The translations under genes were made by a program, and so were the position numbers. Positions 46,425 to 57,738 of a stretch of 64,000 nucleotides of DNA are shown piece after piece. Each line of letters begins with the position of its first letter. Position 1 is the first letter of the stretch. The DNA lies in the NCBI RefSeq assembly GCF_009208775.1, contig NZ_WFLM01000002.1:372001-436000 (forward strand), in the 5' to 3' direction. The notes beneath the pieces are model-generated. The model did not search any database. It had not been told where the DNA came from and worked only from the letters and a program-made list of their open reading frames with translations. This DNA comes from Silvanigrella paludirubra. GTDB taxonomy: Bacteria > Bdellovibrionota_B > Oligoflexia > Silvanigrellales > Silvanigrellaceae.

Positions 46425-46451
46425 TATTTTATTTTGTTTAAAGGAAATTTT

Positions 46452-48185
46452 ATGTCTAAGTATTATTTTACAAATAAATATTTAACTTATAATGAAATGA
46501 ATTCTGACATAGATAACCTTTGTAGTCAAATACCAAAAAATGTTGAGTTTGAAAAATTAGAAATTGCAAAAACTCTTGAAAATAGATCCATTATTGCTTT
46601 AAGAGTTTACCCAAGAGGAAAAAAAATAGATCAACCTACTATTTGGATCGATGCAAATATGCACTCCAATGAATTAATAGGTACAAATGCAGTCTTGGCT
46701 CATATAGAAAACTTAATTCATAAACTTATCTTTAATGAATCAAAGTTTTTTTCTGTAAACTATGTTTTTGTTCCTCGAATTTGTCCTGATGGAGCCGAAC
46801 AATATTTTACAGAAGGAAAACGCAGTAGAAGTAATGCTCGTGATTCTAGAACTGAAATTGAAAAAGGATCTTATTGGAATCGCCAATGTTTAGTTGATAA
46901 AGAAATAAAAGATAATGGTTACGATCTTTTCAAAAACAAAAAAAGAATTGGATTAATGAGAAGAAAAACCAATTCTGGAATTTGGGTTTGTGATGAAAAA
47001 TATCCAGAATTAATGAGAAGAAGAGAGCTAGGAGACAAAGAACCTTTTTACGATATTTTTCCAGAAGGAATGATAGAAAATTATGATGGATTAAATATAC
47101 CATTTGCTCTAAATCTTGGTGATAATGAGATTGATTTAAATCGTAACTTCCCAGTTGAATGGGCTCCAAATTATACTGAAAATAAAAGTGGTAAAATTTC
47201 TTTATCCGAAATTGAAAGCAGAGCCATTGCCGATTTTTCTGCTAAAATACCTCAAATATATTTTTGGTTAAATTATCATTCTTTTGGAGGTGTTTTTATA
47301 CGTCCGCTAGAATCTAAAGATGATAGTGAAATGAATATTTTAGATAGAAGTATTTACCAAACTCTTGATAAAAAACTAGAAGAAATTACAGGCTATCCTT
47401 CCGTAAGCGGTCATAAAGAATTTACTTATATTCCAGGAAAACCATTACAGGGTTGCCTCTCTTCCTACGCTTATCACTCTTTAGGAGCCTATTGTTACGT
47501 TTGTGAATTGTGGGATCTTCCACAAAGAATGGGAAGAAATGAAAGACCATTTATAAATAGATATGACTTTTGGTCAAAAAAAGAATGGCGAAGTGTTTAC
47601 GAATATGATCGCGATGAAAATCAAGGAATTATGTTTGGAAATCCATGGAAAAAATACAACCATAAACAACTTGGAGAAGTTGAAATTTCTGAAATTCCTA
47701 CTTTTTTTGGAATCAATAACCCACCACAAAAACTAATTCATGAAGTGATTCAAAACCAAGTTCCACTTTTATCTTTATTTGTTGATATTGCACCCTTGCC
47801 GAATGTTTCTGTTAACTTATCAAAGGAAAGTACAAGTAATTTAAAATACGCAGAATTAACTATTTCAAATGATGGATTTTTGCCTACTTTTGTCTCTGAA
47901 GCGAGAAGCCGATCACAAGGATCCAAAAAAATTATAATTGAAATACTTGATATTAAAAACGCCACTCTTATAGGAAATTCTATATACCAATTAGATCCTC
48001 TTGCTGGATATTCTCCTGTTATTAATGGATGGATAAATTCTGTAGATATCGGAACAAATTCATATTCTACAAAAACAATTAAAATTCCTTTTCTAACTCA
48101 AAATGAAAAAAGTAAATTCAGTGCTGTATTTAAAGTTAGTTTTTCTCATTTAGGTGAATATTATGCAAAATTTATTAATGAATAA
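46452..48185 (+). CDS. M14-family zinc carboxypeptidase
   Basis: 577 residues starting at the ATG at 46452, with AAAGGA upstream; a start at 46434 lacks a site. Zinc ligands are in DANMHSNELIG (HxxE) and WLNYHSFGG (His). Substrate-binding NRNF is in IDLNRNFPVEW, and the catalytic Glu is in YVCELWDLP. After the catalytic domain (to about 400) a beta-rich tail follows. No signal peptide is visible, so it may act inside the cell, on peptides or cell-wall fragments. Its last 11 bases overlap the 3' end of the histidine kinase gene on the other strand. Confidence 0.88.
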   Translation: MSKYYFTNKYLTYNEMNSDIDNLCSQIPKNVEFEKLEIAKTLENRSIIALRVYPRGKKIDQPTIWIDANMHSNELIGTNAVLAHIENLIHKLIFNESKFFSVNYVFVPRICPDGAEQYFTEGKRSRSNARDSRTEIEKGSYWNRQCLVDKEIKDNGYDLFKNKKRIGLMRRKTNSGIWVCDEKYPELMRRRELGDKEPFYDIFPEGMIENYDGLNIPFALNLGDNEIDLNRNFPVEWAPNYTENKSGKISLSEIESRAIADFSAKIPQIYFWLNYHSFGGVFIRPLESKDDSEMNILDRSIYQTLDKKLEEITGYPSVSGHKEFTYIPGKPLQGCLSSYAYHSLGAYCYVCELWDLPQRMGRNERPFINRYDFWSKKEWRSVYEYDRDENQGIMFGNPWKKYNHKQLGEVEISEIPTFFGINNPPQKLIHEVIQNQVPLLSLFVDIAPLPNVSVNLSKESTSNLKYAELTISNDGFLPTFVSEARSRSQGSKKIIIEILDIKNATLIGNSIYQLDPLAGYSPVINGWINSVDIGTNSYSTKTIKIPFLTQNEKSKFSAVFKVSFSHLGEYYAKFINE

Positions 48186-50363: not shown

Positions 50364-52253
50364 TTATGTTTTCTTTTGAGTTTCAATTAATTTTTTTATT
50401 TCCATTATTTTTGAACCAATACCCTTCGATATTTTTCCAAGTTCTGGGTCAGACTCCAACTGATAAGGAAGCATGTCTGATAAAATTTTGCTAGTCATTT
50501 CTAAATTTTTTAAAGACTTTTCGAATTGCTGTTCTTTAAGTTGCACTAAAGCTAAATGGTAAATAATAACAGGCTCATCAGGCTCAAATTTCAAAGCCTC
50601 TTGAATATATTTTAATGAGTTTTTTAAATCATTTTTTTGAAAATAAAGCCAACCTAATGAATCTAAGTAAAACCCATTTTTCGGATTAATCGTGACAGCC
50701 TTATGCAGAATTTTACGAGCATATTCTATTTTTTTATTCCGCTCTACTAAAGTATAACCAAGAAAATTTAAACCATCGCCGTAATTAGGCCATTTAGTAT
50801 ATATTTGCTCTGCAAATTGAAGAGAAGCCTCTTCCGATTCTGCAAATCTTAAATATTCAGCTTTTTTTAAGTATAATTCCTTTGCATCTGGTATTTTTTT
50901 GAGAGATGAGTTTATAATTTCAACAGCTTCTTTATAATGTAAGTAAAAAGCTAAAATATTAGCTTTAAAAATAGTATCTTCTGCAATATTACTTTCTGAG
51001 ATTTCAAAATTTTTAATATTTTTTTCAGCTTCTTCTTTATTATTTGAATTAATATATATTAATATTTTTGCCTTTTTAGAATCATGGTATAATTCGCTTT
51101 CTTGAGTTATTTTATTTAAATAATCAATTGCCTCATTAAATTTACGCTGACCTTCACTACAAATAGCAAGATAATACATGATGACTGAATTATTATACTT
51201 CTCTTTAGAAAGTTCTAATAATCTTTTAGAAGCACCATTAAAATCTTTATTTACAATTAATATTTTTGAAATTTGAAAAGAAAATTCAGGAGGGAATGGG
51301 ATATGCTCATCAGAACTAGCTTCTAATTTTAATAATATGGATAAAGCTTCCTGTAATTTCTTTTGATATAAAAGAATATTTACATAATTTTGAGCATTTA
51401 GATTATTGTCTGATTCTTTTTCAAAAGCTAATTTAAAATATTTTTCAGCTTCAGCATAGTTTTTTAAATTCTGTTCAATTTTTGCGATAATAGTAATTAT
51501 TTCTATATTATCAGAATCTAATAAATAAGCATTTTTTGCATATTTTAAAGCGCTCATATTATTTTTTTCTGTATAATATTTTTGCGCTAAGGCTAACATT
51601 ACATTTGTTGACTTAGGATTTTTTGATAAAAAATTCTCTAAAATTCTTTTTTTATTATTTTTTATATTTGAAGCATAAAAAATAACTATTGCCTCATTAT
51701 TGGGATATTTTTTATATGCTTTTTCTAATGTTTTAATTAAAGAATTATAATCACCGTTTAATTGATAAACTGAAGCAATTAGAATTTCGATATCAGGTTT
51801 TTGTGGAAAAAGAACTTCTAATTTTAAGGCAATTTCTAAGGCTTTCTCATTTTTTTTAAGATTTATAAGAGTATTCGTTAGATTAATTCCGCATATTAGA
51901 GTTTTATTTGTATAAAAAGATGCCGTATATAATTTTTCAGCTATAAAATAATTTCTTTTTTCTTCAAATATCTTACCAAGTAAAAAAGCCTCATCTGCAT
52001 CAGATGAAGATAATTTATTGGCTTCAAAATTTTGAATTATTTTATTTATCCGATTTTGGACATAAGGTGAAATGGAACCGGGAGGTTCTTTATTGATATT
52101 TATTTCTTTGTCTGTTTCATTTTTTTCAATCACTAAATTTCTTGTATTTGAGTCTGTAACTGTATTTAAATTTGTTTTACTCGCACAAGAATTATTTAAA
52201 ATGAACAAAACAAAGATGAAAATGAATTTAGTATTATTACCAAAACAAGACAT
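50364..52253 (-). CDS. TPR-repeat lipoprotein
   Basis: 629 residues with a lipoprotein signal (LFILNNSC, Cys about 23), so it is anchored in the envelope. Nearly all of the rest is TPR helix pairs; clear repeats include NAQNYVNILLYQKKLQEALS, ALKYAKNAYLLDSDNIEI, and YLDSLGWLYFQKNDLKNSLKYI. Such proteins scaffold envelope complexes. AAGGATAT precedes the ATG. It lies 25 bases after the LdcA-Mpl gene and directly before the GspE-N protein. Confidence 0.85.
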   Translation of the reverse strand: MSCFGNNTKFIFIFVLFILNNSCASKTNLNTVTDSNTRNLVIEKNETDKEININKEPPGSISPYVQNRINKIIQNFEANKLSSSDADEAFLLGKIFEEKRNYFIAEKLYTASFYTNKTLICGINLTNTLINLKKNEKALEIALKLEVLFPQKPDIEILIASVYQLNGDYNSLIKTLEKAYKKYPNNEAIVIFYASNIKNNKKRILENFLSKNPKSTNVMLALAQKYYTEKNNMSALKYAKNAYLLDSDNIEIITIIAKIEQNLKNYAEAEKYFKLAFEKESDNNLNAQNYVNILLYQKKLQEALSILLKLEASSDEHIPFPPEFSFQISKILIVNKDFNGASKRLLELSKEKYNNSVIMYYLAICSEGQRKFNEAIDYLNKITQESELYHDSKKAKILIYINSNNKEEAEKNIKNFEISESNIAEDTIFKANILAFYLHYKEAVEIINSSLKKIPDAKELYLKKAEYLRFAESEEASLQFAEQIYTKWPNYGDGLNFLGYTLVERNKKIEYARKILHKAVTINPKNGFYLDSLGWLYFQKNDLKNSLKYIQEALKFEPDEPVIIYHLALVQLKEQQFEKSLKNLEMTSKILSDMLPYQLESDPELGKISKGIGSKIMEIKKLIETQKKT

Positions 52254-52278: not shown

Positions 52279-54762
52279 CTAAAGCCCATTCGCAAAGCGA
52301 TAAGGTATTCCATCAAATGATCCACTCGACATGAATACAATTGTATCACCTGGGCTGACTTGTTGTTTTAGGGTTTCAAGCAATTTTTCATTGTCGTCAA
52401 AATAACTAGCATTTTCTCCGCAGGCTTTAGCAACTGAGGGACCATCTAAAATCTCATTTTTCTCCATTCTCATATCCTGAGGAACTTTTCCTAACAAAAC
52501 TTTATCCGCATGAAAAAAGCTTTTACTCAATTGATCCTGTAAAACCCTTCTCCTCATTGTTGCATTTCTAGGATCAAAACATGCTATTAATTTACCTTTC
52601 TTTCCAACACTTTTCATATAACTTCGAAATGCTTCTAATGTTGTTACTATTGCTGTTGGATGGTGTGCAAAATCGTCAAAAACAGAGATATTATTTTTTT
52701 CTTTTAGTAGCTCAAATCTTCTTTTAACGCCTTTAAAGCTTTCCATAGATTTACTTAGTTTACTTAAAAAAACTTTATTTTCTTTATAAATTGGTAAATC
52801 TATGAATTCTGTATCTTTTATTTCATCTAAAATATTTGACGCATGCAGTATTGCAATTGATGCCACAGCATTTAAGGCATTGTGATTTCCAAACATTCCT
52901 GTTTTAAATTTTAATAACTTCCCATTAGGTTGCTTGCATTGAATTTCAATCCCATTTTTTAAAGTTTTATAGGAAACTAATTGCCAACAAAATGAGCTTT
53001 TAGATTGCTTAAATGCACTAAAACCTATGACATGGGCGCCAGAGTTTTTAGCCACTTGATAAGCTCTTTTATCATCAAAATTTGCAATAACGATTCCATT
53101 TCTTTCTTTTGTTAATTTAGCCAGTTTTAAAAATTCATTTTCAATTGCTTCTACATTAGGGTAAATATCAGCATGATCAAATTCAATATTATTAATTAAA
53201 CATATTTTAGGTTCATAATGTAAAAATTTAGGCCCTTTATCAAAAAAGGCGGAATCATATTCATCTCCTTCTAAAACAAAAAGATTTTTTGATTTTAAAG
53301 CAAAGCCAGCTTCAAAATTTGCAGGCCTTCCTCCTATCAAAAATGAAGGTTTTTTTCCTAATTTAGTTAAAAGATGAGTAACTAAGCTGCTTGTAGTGGT
53401 TTTCCCATGTGTTCCACTAATAATAATATTTCTACTTTTAGATAAAAAATATTTCCTAAGAGCAGAAGGAAAACTAAACATAGGTATTGTTCGAGAAAGA
53501 ATTTCTTCTAATTCATCATTTTTCTTTAAACTTGCACTTAATCGACTTACAACATTCGCTAAAATAATGGCATCGGGATTATTATTTTCTATATTTTCGG
53601 CTTTGAAACCAACATCAGGTTTAATACCAAGATCGGCAATCACTTTATCCATGGGAGGATAAATTGGTGTATCACTTCCTGTTACAGTATAACCAGCTTC
53701 TTGAAATAGACCAGAAACTTGTGCCATACCCGTTCCACCTATTCCTGTCATGTGAATTTTTAACTGAGTATGATTTTCATCTAATTTTTTACAAAAAAGA
53801 TCTGGTGAAAATTTAGTTGCAACTAAATTTGTTTTATCTATTTTATTATAAATTGTTATTTTAGGATTATCATTAAAATTAATTTTAATTTTTCCTTTCA
53901 TAACAAGAGGGAATCTAAATTCATCATGTCCAAATAATGGAAAATCAATAACAGGTAAATTTAATTTTTTAGAAATAATTTGAATTAAAAATTCTCTATT
54001 CAATGGCTTTTCATTAGAGTCCAAACAATCTGAAAAATTTCCCAACACAATTGCTTTAGTATTTTTTATTAATTCAGAATTTATAAGTGCATCTAATTTT
54101 CTTATAATTCTATATAAATGTTCATTGCATTCTTCAATAAATAAAATATTATTTTTAGGAAATTCAATATATTTAAGTGAAGCTAGACTTTCAGCTAAAC
54201 TTAAATTTAAAGGAACACATACACCAGCCATATTTGCTTTGGAAAACTTATTTATATTATTATAAATTTTAACAGGAAATGTATATTCATTTTCAATATC
54301 ATTTAGCAATTCAATTAAACATTTTTGATCTATCATAGGTCCATTAAAAAAATTTGGTGAAAATGCATTTTGTCCATGAATATAACGAAAATTTGGATAC
54401 CTCAATGATAAATAAACACCAATAAAAGAAATATCTGAAAAACCAATCAATGTTTTTTCTGGTATAACAGGAGGAAGTATATTTTCTAAAAATGGAATAA
54501 TTTCAGTACAACCCATCCCACCTCGAGCAGCAATTAATATATTAAACCTTCTCATAGTTAGAGCATAGCCAAGTTGTGCCGCTCTTTCCATAATAGGAGC
54601 CGCTGTTACACCATCATATGAAACTTGATTTGGTAAAATTTCAGTAACATCAAAACCTAAATTTTTTATATTTTGAATTCGTTCTAATTTTCTTTTATCG
54701 TCTATTCTATTTTTACCTGAAGGATGTATAATTGCAATATGCTTTTTATCTTTATAATTCAT
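52279..54762 (-). CDS. mpl: LD-carboxypeptidase/UDP-MurNAc-tripeptide ligase fusion (LdcA-Mpl)
   Basis: 827 residues joining two steps of peptidoglycan recycling. Residues 1-310 are a peptidase S66 LD-carboxypeptidase: AARGGMGCTEIIPFL, LIGFSDISFIGVYLS (region of the Ser nucleophile), ILFIEECNEHLYRI (Glu) and FPLFGHDEFRFP (His). This domain removes the terminal D-Ala of the tetrapeptide. From about 335, IHMTGIGGTGMAQVSGLF opens a Mur ligase: SGTHGKTTTSSLVTHLL (ATP loop, about 450), LEGDEYDSAFFDKGPKF, NNIEFDHADIYPN and FDDFAHHPTAI. These are the marks of Mpl, which attaches the tripeptide to UDP-MurNAc. Both enzymes are separate proteins in E. coli. AGGAGA supports the start. Confidence 0.9.
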   Translation of the reverse strand: MNYKDKKHIAIIHPSGKNRIDDKRKLERIQNIKNLGFDVTEILPNQVSYDGVTAAPIMERAAQLGYALTMRRFNILIAARGGMGCTEIIPFLENILPPVIPEKTLIGFSDISFIGVYLSLRYPNFRYIHGQNAFSPNFFNGPMIDQKCLIELLNDIENEYTFPVKIYNNINKFSKANMAGVCVPLNLSLAESLASLKYIEFPKNNILFIEECNEHLYRIIRKLDALINSELIKNTKAIVLGNFSDCLDSNEKPLNREFLIQIISKKLNLPVIDFPLFGHDEFRFPLVMKGKIKINFNDNPKITIYNKIDKTNLVATKFSPDLFCKKLDENHTQLKIHMTGIGGTGMAQVSGLFQEAGYTVTGSDTPIYPPMDKVIADLGIKPDVGFKAENIENNNPDAIILANVVSRLSASLKKNDELEEILSRTIPMFSFPSALRKYFLSKSRNIIISGTHGKTTTSSLVTHLLTKLGKKPSFLIGGRPANFEAGFALKSKNLFVLEGDEYDSAFFDKGPKFLHYEPKICLINNIEFDHADIYPNVEAIENEFLKLAKLTKERNGIVIANFDDKRAYQVAKNSGAHVIGFSAFKQSKSSFCWQLVSYKTLKNGIEIQCKQPNGKLLKFKTGMFGNHNALNAVASIAILHASNILDEIKDTEFIDLPIYKENKVFLSKLSKSMESFKGVKRRFELLKEKNNISVFDDFAHHPTAIVTTLEAFRSYMKSVGKKGKLIACFDPRNATMRRRVLQDQLSKSFFHADKVLLGKVPQDMRMEKNEILDGPSVAKACGENASYFDDNEKLLETLKQQVSPGDTIVFMSSGSFDGIPYRFANGL

Positions 54763-54777
54763 TGAGTATCTCCTAAT

Positions 54778-57714
54778 TTAGTCATTTATTTTTTTAATTA
54801 AACTTATTTTATTTTTTTGCGATTCAGTCCAAATAGAAATATAAGCGAATTTAATATTATTTAAATTTTTGAAATTATTTATTAATTTTTCTTCCACTAA
54901 TTCATTTATTTCTTTATCTTTATACTTTAAATTTATGATATCTGGACATTCAAAAGATAAAATAGATTTATTACTATCCATTGCATAGCAATAAGATAAA
55001 ACTTTTGTATCATCTTTTTCAGTTAGAGATGATGACTGAATTTTATTTTCAATTTCAATTTGACACGTTATAGTATCCAAATTTTTTACGTTATTTATCT
55101 CGAAAGAGATATTATTTTTATATGAATTTTTTGAAAAAACACGCTGATTATTTAAAAAGATATGATATTTCAATAATTGAGGTTTACCAAGATCAATTAA
55201 TGAAGATTCACATATGTATTCATTATTTTCTTTCTTTAAAATTCTAGCCCCTAAAAAATAGCCGTAAAATAAATCTAATTTTTCTTCATTTAATTTTTTT
55301 TCGGCTTCTTTATTATTTATTTTTTCTAAAACAGGATATTTTGATAGATTCTCTATATACCCTGACTCATTATAAAATAAATCTAAATTTGTTTCCTCAT
55401 TTAAAAAATGAAATTTTAGAAGAAATGGAGAAAATGGATTAATATTGTTATTCTTATGGAGAAAAATATTTACTTTATCTATATTATCTAAATAGTTTTT
55501 CTTTATATTCAAATTATAATTATTTAAATAAATCTTATTTGTTTCAACTTTTTTATATTTATTATTTATAGATTTTAATATACTCTCCAAGTTTTTTTCA
55601 TTTATTTTGAGTGTTTTTGTATTTGATAGAGTAGTACCATTTGCAACAACCACATTACAATAATCTTCTTTTTGATTAAAATTAAAATTATATTCATAAT
55701 AATAAATATGTTTTTTCTCTAATAAATTTATTATGTCCAAATTTCTATTTGAGATTTTTCTATCAAAATTTATAATATTTTTACTTAATTTATTTTTTTC
55801 AAGAATAAACTGAGCTGATAAAAACAAATTTTGTGGATCCTGAGCTACTACAAAACATTTCTGCCCTTGCTCTAAATTTAATATACCCGAAAATAGAATA
55901 TTTGGTTTATAATTTGAAATAAAAAACTTAACATTCGAATATAAATTTGTGTATTTATTATTTTCAAAAACTCTGATTACTAAAGGAAATTTTGGAATAT
56001 TAAACAAATCAATTAATTGAGAATCCTTGATATAGTTTTTTATATTTAATATATCATTATCGTTAAATTTTAAATAGACATTATTTTTTTTATCCTTATA
56101 ACAAATATTTTCAGTTAATTTATAATTATCTTTATTATTTAAATAACATTTTATATTACCCGAATAAAAATCTAGTTTTTCTTTAAATAGATATTTTTTT
56201 GAAATATTATTTAAATTAAAAACATAACTATCTTTTAACCAGGAAGGATTTTTCTTGTTAGGATCCCTAACTATATACGATGTAGCTCCAATTATGCTCT
56301 TATTTAAAATTTTACCTGCCACAATACATGTAATATAATTTTTATTTAAATTATAATTTAAAATAGATTTATCCCTAAAATCAGTTATTTCAATATTATC
56401 AACAAACCAATAAATATTGTAAAATGATGAATTTTGAATTGATTCTGGAATATTACATAAAAATATTTGTTCATTTTTATCTGCAGTAACTGACAATTTA
56501 TCAGATATATTCTCAATATTTTCTTGATTTTCTAATAAATTAAAAACTACAATTTCTTTATCGAAATTTTCATTATTAATATTCAACGAAATTTTAATTT
56601 TTTCGTGTAATAACGACTTTTTAAAATTATCGTTTGGAATTATTTTAATTTGAATTGTATTTGGTTTTTCTGAAGCCAATATTATGCATCGAATATTGTT
56701 ACTTTCTTTACAATTCCATTCATGCTTTAATGACATTATATTTAAATTTGTTGAAAATTGAACTATTTTAGGTTTTATATTTTTTTCAAAACCTATTTGA
56801 TTAGGTCCCAAAATTTCTAAATATTTATTATCTATTTCAAAAACTTTTGAAATCCCATTATTATTTGAACACTGATAATTCTCGCCATATTCTATATATT
56901 TTTCAGGTAATACCTGTAAGTTAAAATCTGGAATAATTTTTTCATTTTTATACCAAATAAAATCTTTGTTATTTGGGTTATACAAAAAAGAATTTGAATG
57001 ACAAAAAAAACTTTTATCAAATATAGAGTTTTTAAATTCAATATAGGGGGGTATTTTTATTTTTTCATTTTCATTATTGATATTATTTAAAACAAATTGT
57101 ATTCCTATTTTTGAAACAACATTACTCTCTTTTTTTAATCCAACCGTTAAATTAAAAATTCGATATTTTTCATTTCCAAGTAAGTTTAGAATTTTTTGAT
57201 AATCGCTATTTTTACTTTCTATACCACCTGTTTCTCTGTCTATTAAGGAACAAAAATTATTTTCTTCAATATTATCTGTTCCGCTTTCACAGAAAAAAAA
57301 CTGATCTTCTTCTTTTGTTTTAAAATAATTAGAAATTGAAAAATCAGAAATTGATGAAATTGTATAAGAATTTACCCCTGGAGAAATATTAGGCCAGTTT
57401 TCAAAAGTAGAAAAGCTTTCTTTAATAAGATCTTTTTTATATAATAAACCATCAAATAAAATTGTTTCACAAGTAATGTTTGGAAATTTTTGAGCTAAAG
57501 AAAAATCAATTGAATCTGAATAGGTTTCTATTTCTCTTTTTTTATCTGCGGTATATAAAATCCATTTTTTTTGATAAATTTTTACTTTTGAATTTGAATT
57601 ATTTAATTTACAATTTAATTTTTTAGAATTATAATCAGCTGAAATATTAGTATAATTAAGTTCTATTTGATTTGTATTATTAAAGTAAACAACATCAGGA
57701 GCAATAATAGGCAT
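54778..57714 (-). CDS. Large protein with immunoglobulin-like Cys-Trp-Cys modules, unknown function
   Basis: About 978 residues, extremely rich in Asn, Lys and Ile. Several segments show the Cys...Trp...Cys spacing of immunoglobulin-like domains: from LNCKLNN through KKWILY to ITCETIL near the start, SFFCHSN...FIWYKN...YQCSNN, and FLCNIPE...IYWFVDN...ITCIVAG in the middle. A similar Cys pair sits near the C-terminus (EYICESS...ITCQIEI). This suggests a tandem beta-sandwich protein with disulfides, expected outside the cytoplasm, yet no signal peptide is seen and a stop codon closes the frame just upstream. The start is the ATG at 57714 or the TTG at 57720. It is first in the LdcA-Mpl operon (15-base gap). 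Confidence 0.6.
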   Translation of the reverse strand: MPIIAPDVVYFNNTNQIELNYTNISADYNSKKLNCKLNNSNSKVKIYQKKWILYTADKKREIETYSDSIDFSLAQKFPNITCETILFDGLLYKKDLIKESFSTFENWPNISPGVNSYTISSISDFSISNYFKTKEEDQFFFCESGTDNIEENNFCSLIDRETGGIESKNSDYQKILNLLGNEKYRIFNLTVGLKKESNVVSKIGIQFVLNNINNENEKIKIPPYIEFKNSIFDKSFFCHSNSFLYNPNNKDFIWYKNEKIIPDFNLQVLPEKYIEYGENYQCSNNNGISKVFEIDNKYLEILGPNQIGFEKNIKPKIVQFSTNLNIMSLKHEWNCKESNNIRCIILASEKPNTIQIKIIPNDNFKKSLLHEKIKISLNINNENFDKEIVVFNLLENQENIENISDKLSVTADKNEQIFLCNIPESIQNSSFYNIYWFVDNIEITDFRDKSILNYNLNKNYITCIVAGKILNKSIIGATSYIVRDPNKKNPSWLKDSYVFNLNNISKKYLFKEKLDFYSGNIKCYLNNKDNYKLTENICYKDKKNNVYLKFNDNDILNIKNYIKDSQLIDLFNIPKFPLVIRVFENNKYTNLYSNVKFFISNYKPNILFSGILNLEQGQKCFVVAQDPQNLFLSAQFILEKNKLSKNIINFDRKISNRNLDIINLLEKKHIYYYEYNFNFNQKEDYCNVVVANGTTLSNTKTLKINEKNLESILKSINNKYKKVETNKIYLNNYNLNIKKNYLDNIDKVNIFLHKNNNINPFSPFLLKFHFLNEETNLDLFYNESGYIENLSKYPVLEKINNKEAEKKLNEEKLDLFYGYFLGARILKKENNEYICESSLIDLGKPQLLKYHIFLNNQRVFSKNSYKNNISFEINNVKNLDTITCQIEIENKIQSSSLTEKDDTKVLSYCYAMDSNKSILSFECPDIINLKYKDKEINELVEEKLINNFKNLNNIKFAYISIWTESQKNKISLIKKIND

Positions 57715-57738
57715 TATCAATGCTCTTTCTTAAAGAAA

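Follow-up and report, generated by a model that had tools for sequence, protein, structure and literature searches.

Other bacteria make LdcA and Mpl, two enzymes with which old cell-wall peptide is trimmed and re-used, as separate proteins. Does the locus described here, in the genome of Silvanigrella paludirubra (3.93 Mb, 98% complete), encode both in one polypeptide, and what would such a joining mean for peptidoglycan recycling? An earlier note on the window, i.e., the whole stretch of 64,000 nucleotides that was analysed, had claimed a fusion of an S66 carboxypeptidase with an Mpl ligase across a short linker. We examined the gene, its two halves, its distribution and its pathway context.

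Results

The LdcA-Mpl fusion is a single open frame of 827 amino acids on the minus strand of the window (52279-54762), with an ATG start at 54762 preceded by TAGGAG as ribosome-binding site and a stop at 52279; the coordinates of the earlier note were exact. Five Pfam domains, each exceeding its own cut-off, follow one another in the order Peptidase_S66 (residues 9-119), Peptidase_S66C (183-294), Mur_ligase (335-437), Mur_ligase_M (448-638) and Mur_ligase_C (681-814). An AlphaFold2 model with 28 relatives as input (mean pLDDT 87.8, pTM 0.89) places the final S66 strand at 301-305 and the opening ligase strand at 335-339. The S66 LD-carboxypeptidase domain thus occupies residues 1-305 (53848-54762, minus strand) and the Mpl ligase domains residues 334-827 (52279-53763, minus strand). 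Between them lies a linker of ~28 residues, annotated as residues 306-333 (53764-53847, minus strand) and put by the model at about 306-334, which agrees with the proposed position of about 310-335. The model is weakest near linker residues 321-330 (mean pLDDT 55), and the best solved structural neighbours for its ligase half are MurC and Mpl.

A chance open frame, an assembly artefact or a sequencing error that erased a stop codon can be ruled out, as the frame is open with identical, uninterrupted architecture in 13 further genomes and both domains have dN/dS values well below 1. We also rejected an internal start yielding free Mpl, as there is no convincing start codon with a ribosome-binding site at the domain boundary; the sole ATG nearby encodes M337, which falls within the ligase's first strand. 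For near relatives with a usable synonymous distance, dN/dS was ~0.1 for the S66 half and 0.04-0.08 for the Mpl half (0.20 and 0.10 between the window genome and genome G003), and 0.5-0.6 for the linker, the length of which varies by a few residues at most within the main family. Low ratios in both halves, a higher ratio in the linker and its conserved length indicate that both enzymes are maintained by purifying selection and that the linker serves as a spacer.

Membership of the N-terminal half in peptidase family S66 is clear from its profile scores (PF02016/PF17676), with 48.3 bits for Peptidase_S66 and 65.8 bits for Peptidase_S66C against gathering scores of 25 and 23.7 bits. Ser109, Glu210 and His279 align with the catalytic triad of Escherichia coli LdcA and are invariant in 14 fusions. 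The S66 active site is hence intact as claimed; the earlier note had named a loss of these residues as refuting its reading, and none of the three is lost. The nearest solved relatives are the muramoyltetrapeptide carboxypeptidases 6uuk, 5z01 and 1zl0, with Pseudomonas PA5198 among those ranking before MccF, whose structures score weaker. The fused domain shares with LdcA the family, the Ser-Glu-His triad and the predicted reaction, but differs in being attached to a ligase and in its divergence: it misses the NCBIfam equivalog cut-off for LdcA (NF008424) with 61 vs 378 bits, fused S66 domains from different genera or families are 35-40% identical, and in the S66 tree they form one clade (100) that is set off by a long stem. 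Given this long stem, the specificity of the fused S66 domain may have shifted.

Several lines of evidence back the claimed identity of the C-terminal half as Mpl, the UDP-MurNAc:L-Ala-gamma-D-Glu-mDAP ligase. TIGR01081 (Mpl) is its best model, with 307.3 bits vs 283.8 for MurC, and the Mpl structures 3hn7 and 3eag are its top sequence matches in the PDB. The score misses the TIGR01081 equivalog cut-off of 388.7, as does that of one unfused Mpl of the class, tested as comparison (352.7 bits). Besides the three Mur ligase domains and the P-loop GTHGKTT, the ligase half carries a YPPM motif, the segment DEYDSAFFDKGPKFLHY with an insertion missing from MurC, and DPRNATM at the C-terminal end. The Mpl-type motif DEYDxAFFDKxxKFxHY is present in the fusion and absent from both E. 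coli MurC and the MurC of the genome itself. Likewise, DEYDSAFFDKGPKFLHY and DPRNATM match the Mpl-type patterns (S/T)AFFDKxxK after Tyr and C-terminal E/D-P-R-x-x-T, which the two MurC proteins lack. The corresponding residues and segment are named as Mpl-specific in the description of the Psychrobacter Mpl structure (PMC3060825), and these signature segments are conserved across all fusions found. In the ligase tree, the split between Mpl and MurC has SH-aLRT support of 96-98 and the fused ligases, which form one clade (98), fall on the Mpl side as sister to the unfused Mpl of the class (branch 100). Motifs and tree thus rule out that the ligase is a MurC, for which the genome has a separate gene. 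The fused ligase resembles known Mpl in having three Mur domains, the P-loop, the Mpl-specific loop and, at the C-terminal end, the peptide-binding motif; it differs in the S66 domain in front and in scoring below the curated cut-off, the latter like the unfused relative.

All 58 genomes of the class (the same 58 make up the phylum) were searched, i.e., 15 Silvanigrellales and 43 others. The uninterrupted fusion is present in 14 of the 15 Silvanigrellales, while in the fifteenth (G001) the contig starts only within the ligase, and it is absent from all 43 class genomes outside the order; the two-domain architecture is thus real and, in the class, rare. The 13 further fusions are 40-73% identical to the window protein and together with it cover every Silvanigrellales genome with a full locus, in five genera of one family and one genus of a second family. 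Of the relatives in the contig scan, at least 566 in number, the best 80 include Spirobacillus cienkowskii (71%) as the closest named one, from the same genus group. Plasmid records yielded no fusion, with no place covering 80% of the query. Matches spanning both domains in six genomes outside the order (G015, G025, G042, G046, G052, G054) resembled fusions and were rejected; by the genome search all six contain stop codons, and the four read in detail are two genes.

In 36 of the 43 other class genomes, a separate mpl is immediately preceded by ldcA, counted as an S66 gene adjoining mpl on the same strand; three genomes without an Mpl match and four others fall outside this count. In the class loci read, the two genes either overlap at start and stop (-4 nt) or leave a gap of 9-15 nt, except for one of 75 nt; in four loci (L109, L110, L111, L112) they share a reading frame. 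In L109, L111 and L112, one stop codon alone divides them. The same neighbour pair occurs in Acidobacteriota, with an overlap of 1-4 nt in most. As the fusion is found in one clade of the class only and ldcA and mpl are adjacent in 36 of 43 relatives, it arose once, at the base of the Silvanigrellales, most simply by joining of adjacent genes of a tight operon. Tree tests of the origin of the fused S66 domain gave an AU p of 0.50 for a grouping with ldcA of the class and a support of 63 for a grouping with the exported S66 paralogue; gene order favours the neighbouring ldcA as source.

Directly downstream of the fusion, at a distance of 25 nt, lies a gene (50364-52253, minus strand) that is probably co-transcribed with it and encodes a TPR protein with an N terminus resembling that of a lipoprotein. 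This gene adjoins the fusion in all Silvanigrellales loci of which the downstream side was read, including that of G014 from another family. Immediately upstream, the window encodes a 980-aa protein without any Pfam match (54778-57720, minus strand), which has a counterpart in the window genus (L170, L172) and none at the corresponding loci from other genera (L171, L173, L174). An M14 zinc carboxypeptidase of 583 aa (46434-48185, plus strand) is encoded ~4 kb from the fusion, and also near the fusion in G007 (L172).

Recycling genes were sought family by family in the window genome. Its six Mur_ligase_M genes were read from sequence and placement as MurC, MurD, MurE, MurF, FolC and the fusion, with no second Mpl among them. 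One further S66 gene encodes a protein of 369 aa that is probably exported, judging from its N-terminal hydrophobic segment; some relatives have additional S66 paralogues. The check proposed in the earlier note, whether separate ldcA or mpl genes exist in this genome, thus gave no other mpl but one other S66 gene. Profile search gave no match to AmpG (TIGR00901) at E<=0.001 in the window genome and weak partial matches only in two genomes of its genus; AmpG is present in a sister genus (G010, G013) and above cut-off in 12 of 56 class genomes. AnmK was absent from all 15 Silvanigrellales genomes by profile search. In the window genome, both Amidase_2 proteins start with lipoprotein-like signals (L130, L167), and the Amidase_2 model found no cytoplasmic AmpD-type amidase. 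A NagZ-like glycosidase is present; the window genus thus retains LdcA-Mpl and the NagZ-like enzyme despite undetected AmpG and AnmK. The window genome also has 29 matches to the peptide-binding family SBP_bac_5, among them a tandem cluster with several within 10 kb (G000:C6:283310-292579).

Discussion

We consider it likely that the fusion is a bifunctional enzyme that salvages peptidoglycan peptides in the cytoplasm, acting on the substrates predicted from its two families. The S66 domain would trim the tetrapeptide and the Mpl domain would then ligate the tripeptide to UDP-MurNAc. The covalent join would hold the trimming activity next to the ligase in a fixed 1:1 amount, such that the tetrapeptide, from which a dead-end precursor would be made, would not be ligated or would not persist. 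We infer these substrates, the order of steps and the benefit of the fusion, as well as the cytoplasmic location, the last from the absence of an export signal. PaMpl joins the tripeptide at 260/min and the tetrapeptide at 5.9/min, i.e., ~44 times slower (PMC3060825), and in Acinetobacter baumannii that lacks its recycling LD-carboxypeptidase, tetrapeptide precursors whose formation depends on Mpl are toxic (PMC8649774); in the light of both observations, keeping trimming and ligation together makes sense. Three points count against a bifunctional enzyme. Both halves score under curated equivalog cut-offs, although the unfused Mpl of the class does so too; cytoplasmic tetrapeptide would not be supplied in the textbook way, as AmpG and AnmK are undetected in the genus and the Amidase_2 proteins are lipoprotein-like; and the long stem of the fused S66 domain may reflect a shift in specificity.

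Given the undetected AmpG and AnmK and the lipoprotein-like Amidase_2 proteins, peptides probably enter by a route other than the textbook one, perhaps a peptide ABC importer. The peptide would be freed outside the cytoplasm and then taken up through an ABC peptide transporter. Agrobacterium, which lacks AmpG and imports muropeptides by an ABC system, sets a precedent (PMC9790009). A bolder scenario, in which the tethered S66 domain edits UDP-MurNAc-tetrapeptide or hands over the tripeptide directly, within a peptide-only salvage that needs neither AmpG nor AnmK and draws on a peptide ABC importer, strikes us as rather improbable.

Alternative explanations differ in which part of the bifunctional reading they address. 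That the S66 half has an MccF-like immunity function or another S66 activity is very improbable. The breadth of the family, the weaker matches to MccF structures, the score under the LdcA equivalog cut-off and the long tree stem would allow it, but muramoyltetrapeptide carboxypeptidases rank ahead of MccF among solved relatives, the domain is joined to Mpl, the next enzyme of the LdcA pathway, and relatives retain ldcA beside mpl. The order of steps could also be reversed, since E. coli LdcA reportedly accepts both free tetrapeptide and UDP-MurNAc-tetrapeptide. Mpl would then ligate any arriving stem peptide and the tethered S66 domain would take D-Ala off the UDP-MurNAc-tetrapeptide, as editing and not as supply. 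We regard such proofreading as unlikely, although the ligase domain that binds UDP-MurNAc is the N-terminal one, which the S66 domain precedes in the chain and to which it is tethered. Psychrobacter Mpl does accept the tetrapeptide (PMC3060825), but if the low rate of PaMpl on this substrate holds here too, little tetrapeptide product is to be expected.

A fusion without benefit is a more serious contender, to which we give somewhat less than an even chance. A stop codon would have been lost between tightly coupled genes, leaving two independent enzymes coupled by co-expression only. This alternative concerns the benefit alone and is compatible with both activities of the bifunctional enzyme. 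It fits the overlap or 9-15 nt spacing of the separate genes, their common frame in four class loci and the nearly unconstrained linker sequence. It also fits the Bordetella MurE-MurF fusion, a flexible, elongated molecule in the studied form, the active sites of which lie about 35 Angstrom from each other (PMC6420597). In view of this distance, we treat channelling of the peptide within LdcA-Mpl, as proposed in the earlier note, as a mere possibility. However, the fusion was kept in every Silvanigrellales genome with a full locus, across five genera and one of a second family, and the linker has nearly the same length throughout the main family, whereas a neutral join might have split at least once.

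Several fusions between neighbouring mur genes have been described, namely MurE-MurF in Bordetella, MurB-MurC in Verrucomicrobium, MurC-Ddl in Chlamydia, and MurG-MurC (PMC6420597, PMC4929429). Like LdcA-Mpl, they join cell-wall genes that lie side by side, some of them for consecutive steps, but they serve de novo synthesis, whereas LdcA-Mpl unites a hydrolase with a ligase, both of them enzymes of recycling. We found no description of an LdcA-Mpl or S66-Mur ligase fusion in the open-access literature. The chemistry and the two enzymes are known; what we found undescribed is the fusion itself, which is confined to Silvanigrellales among the 58 class genomes.

Together with the ldcA-mpl gene pair from which it most simply came, the fusion provides evidence at the level of genes that the trimming of stem peptides and their re-ligation act together, and it points to peptide salvage in bacteria without detected AmpG. 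It also offers a ready-made construct with which to probe whether coupling of the two activities prevents dead-end tetrapeptide precursors.
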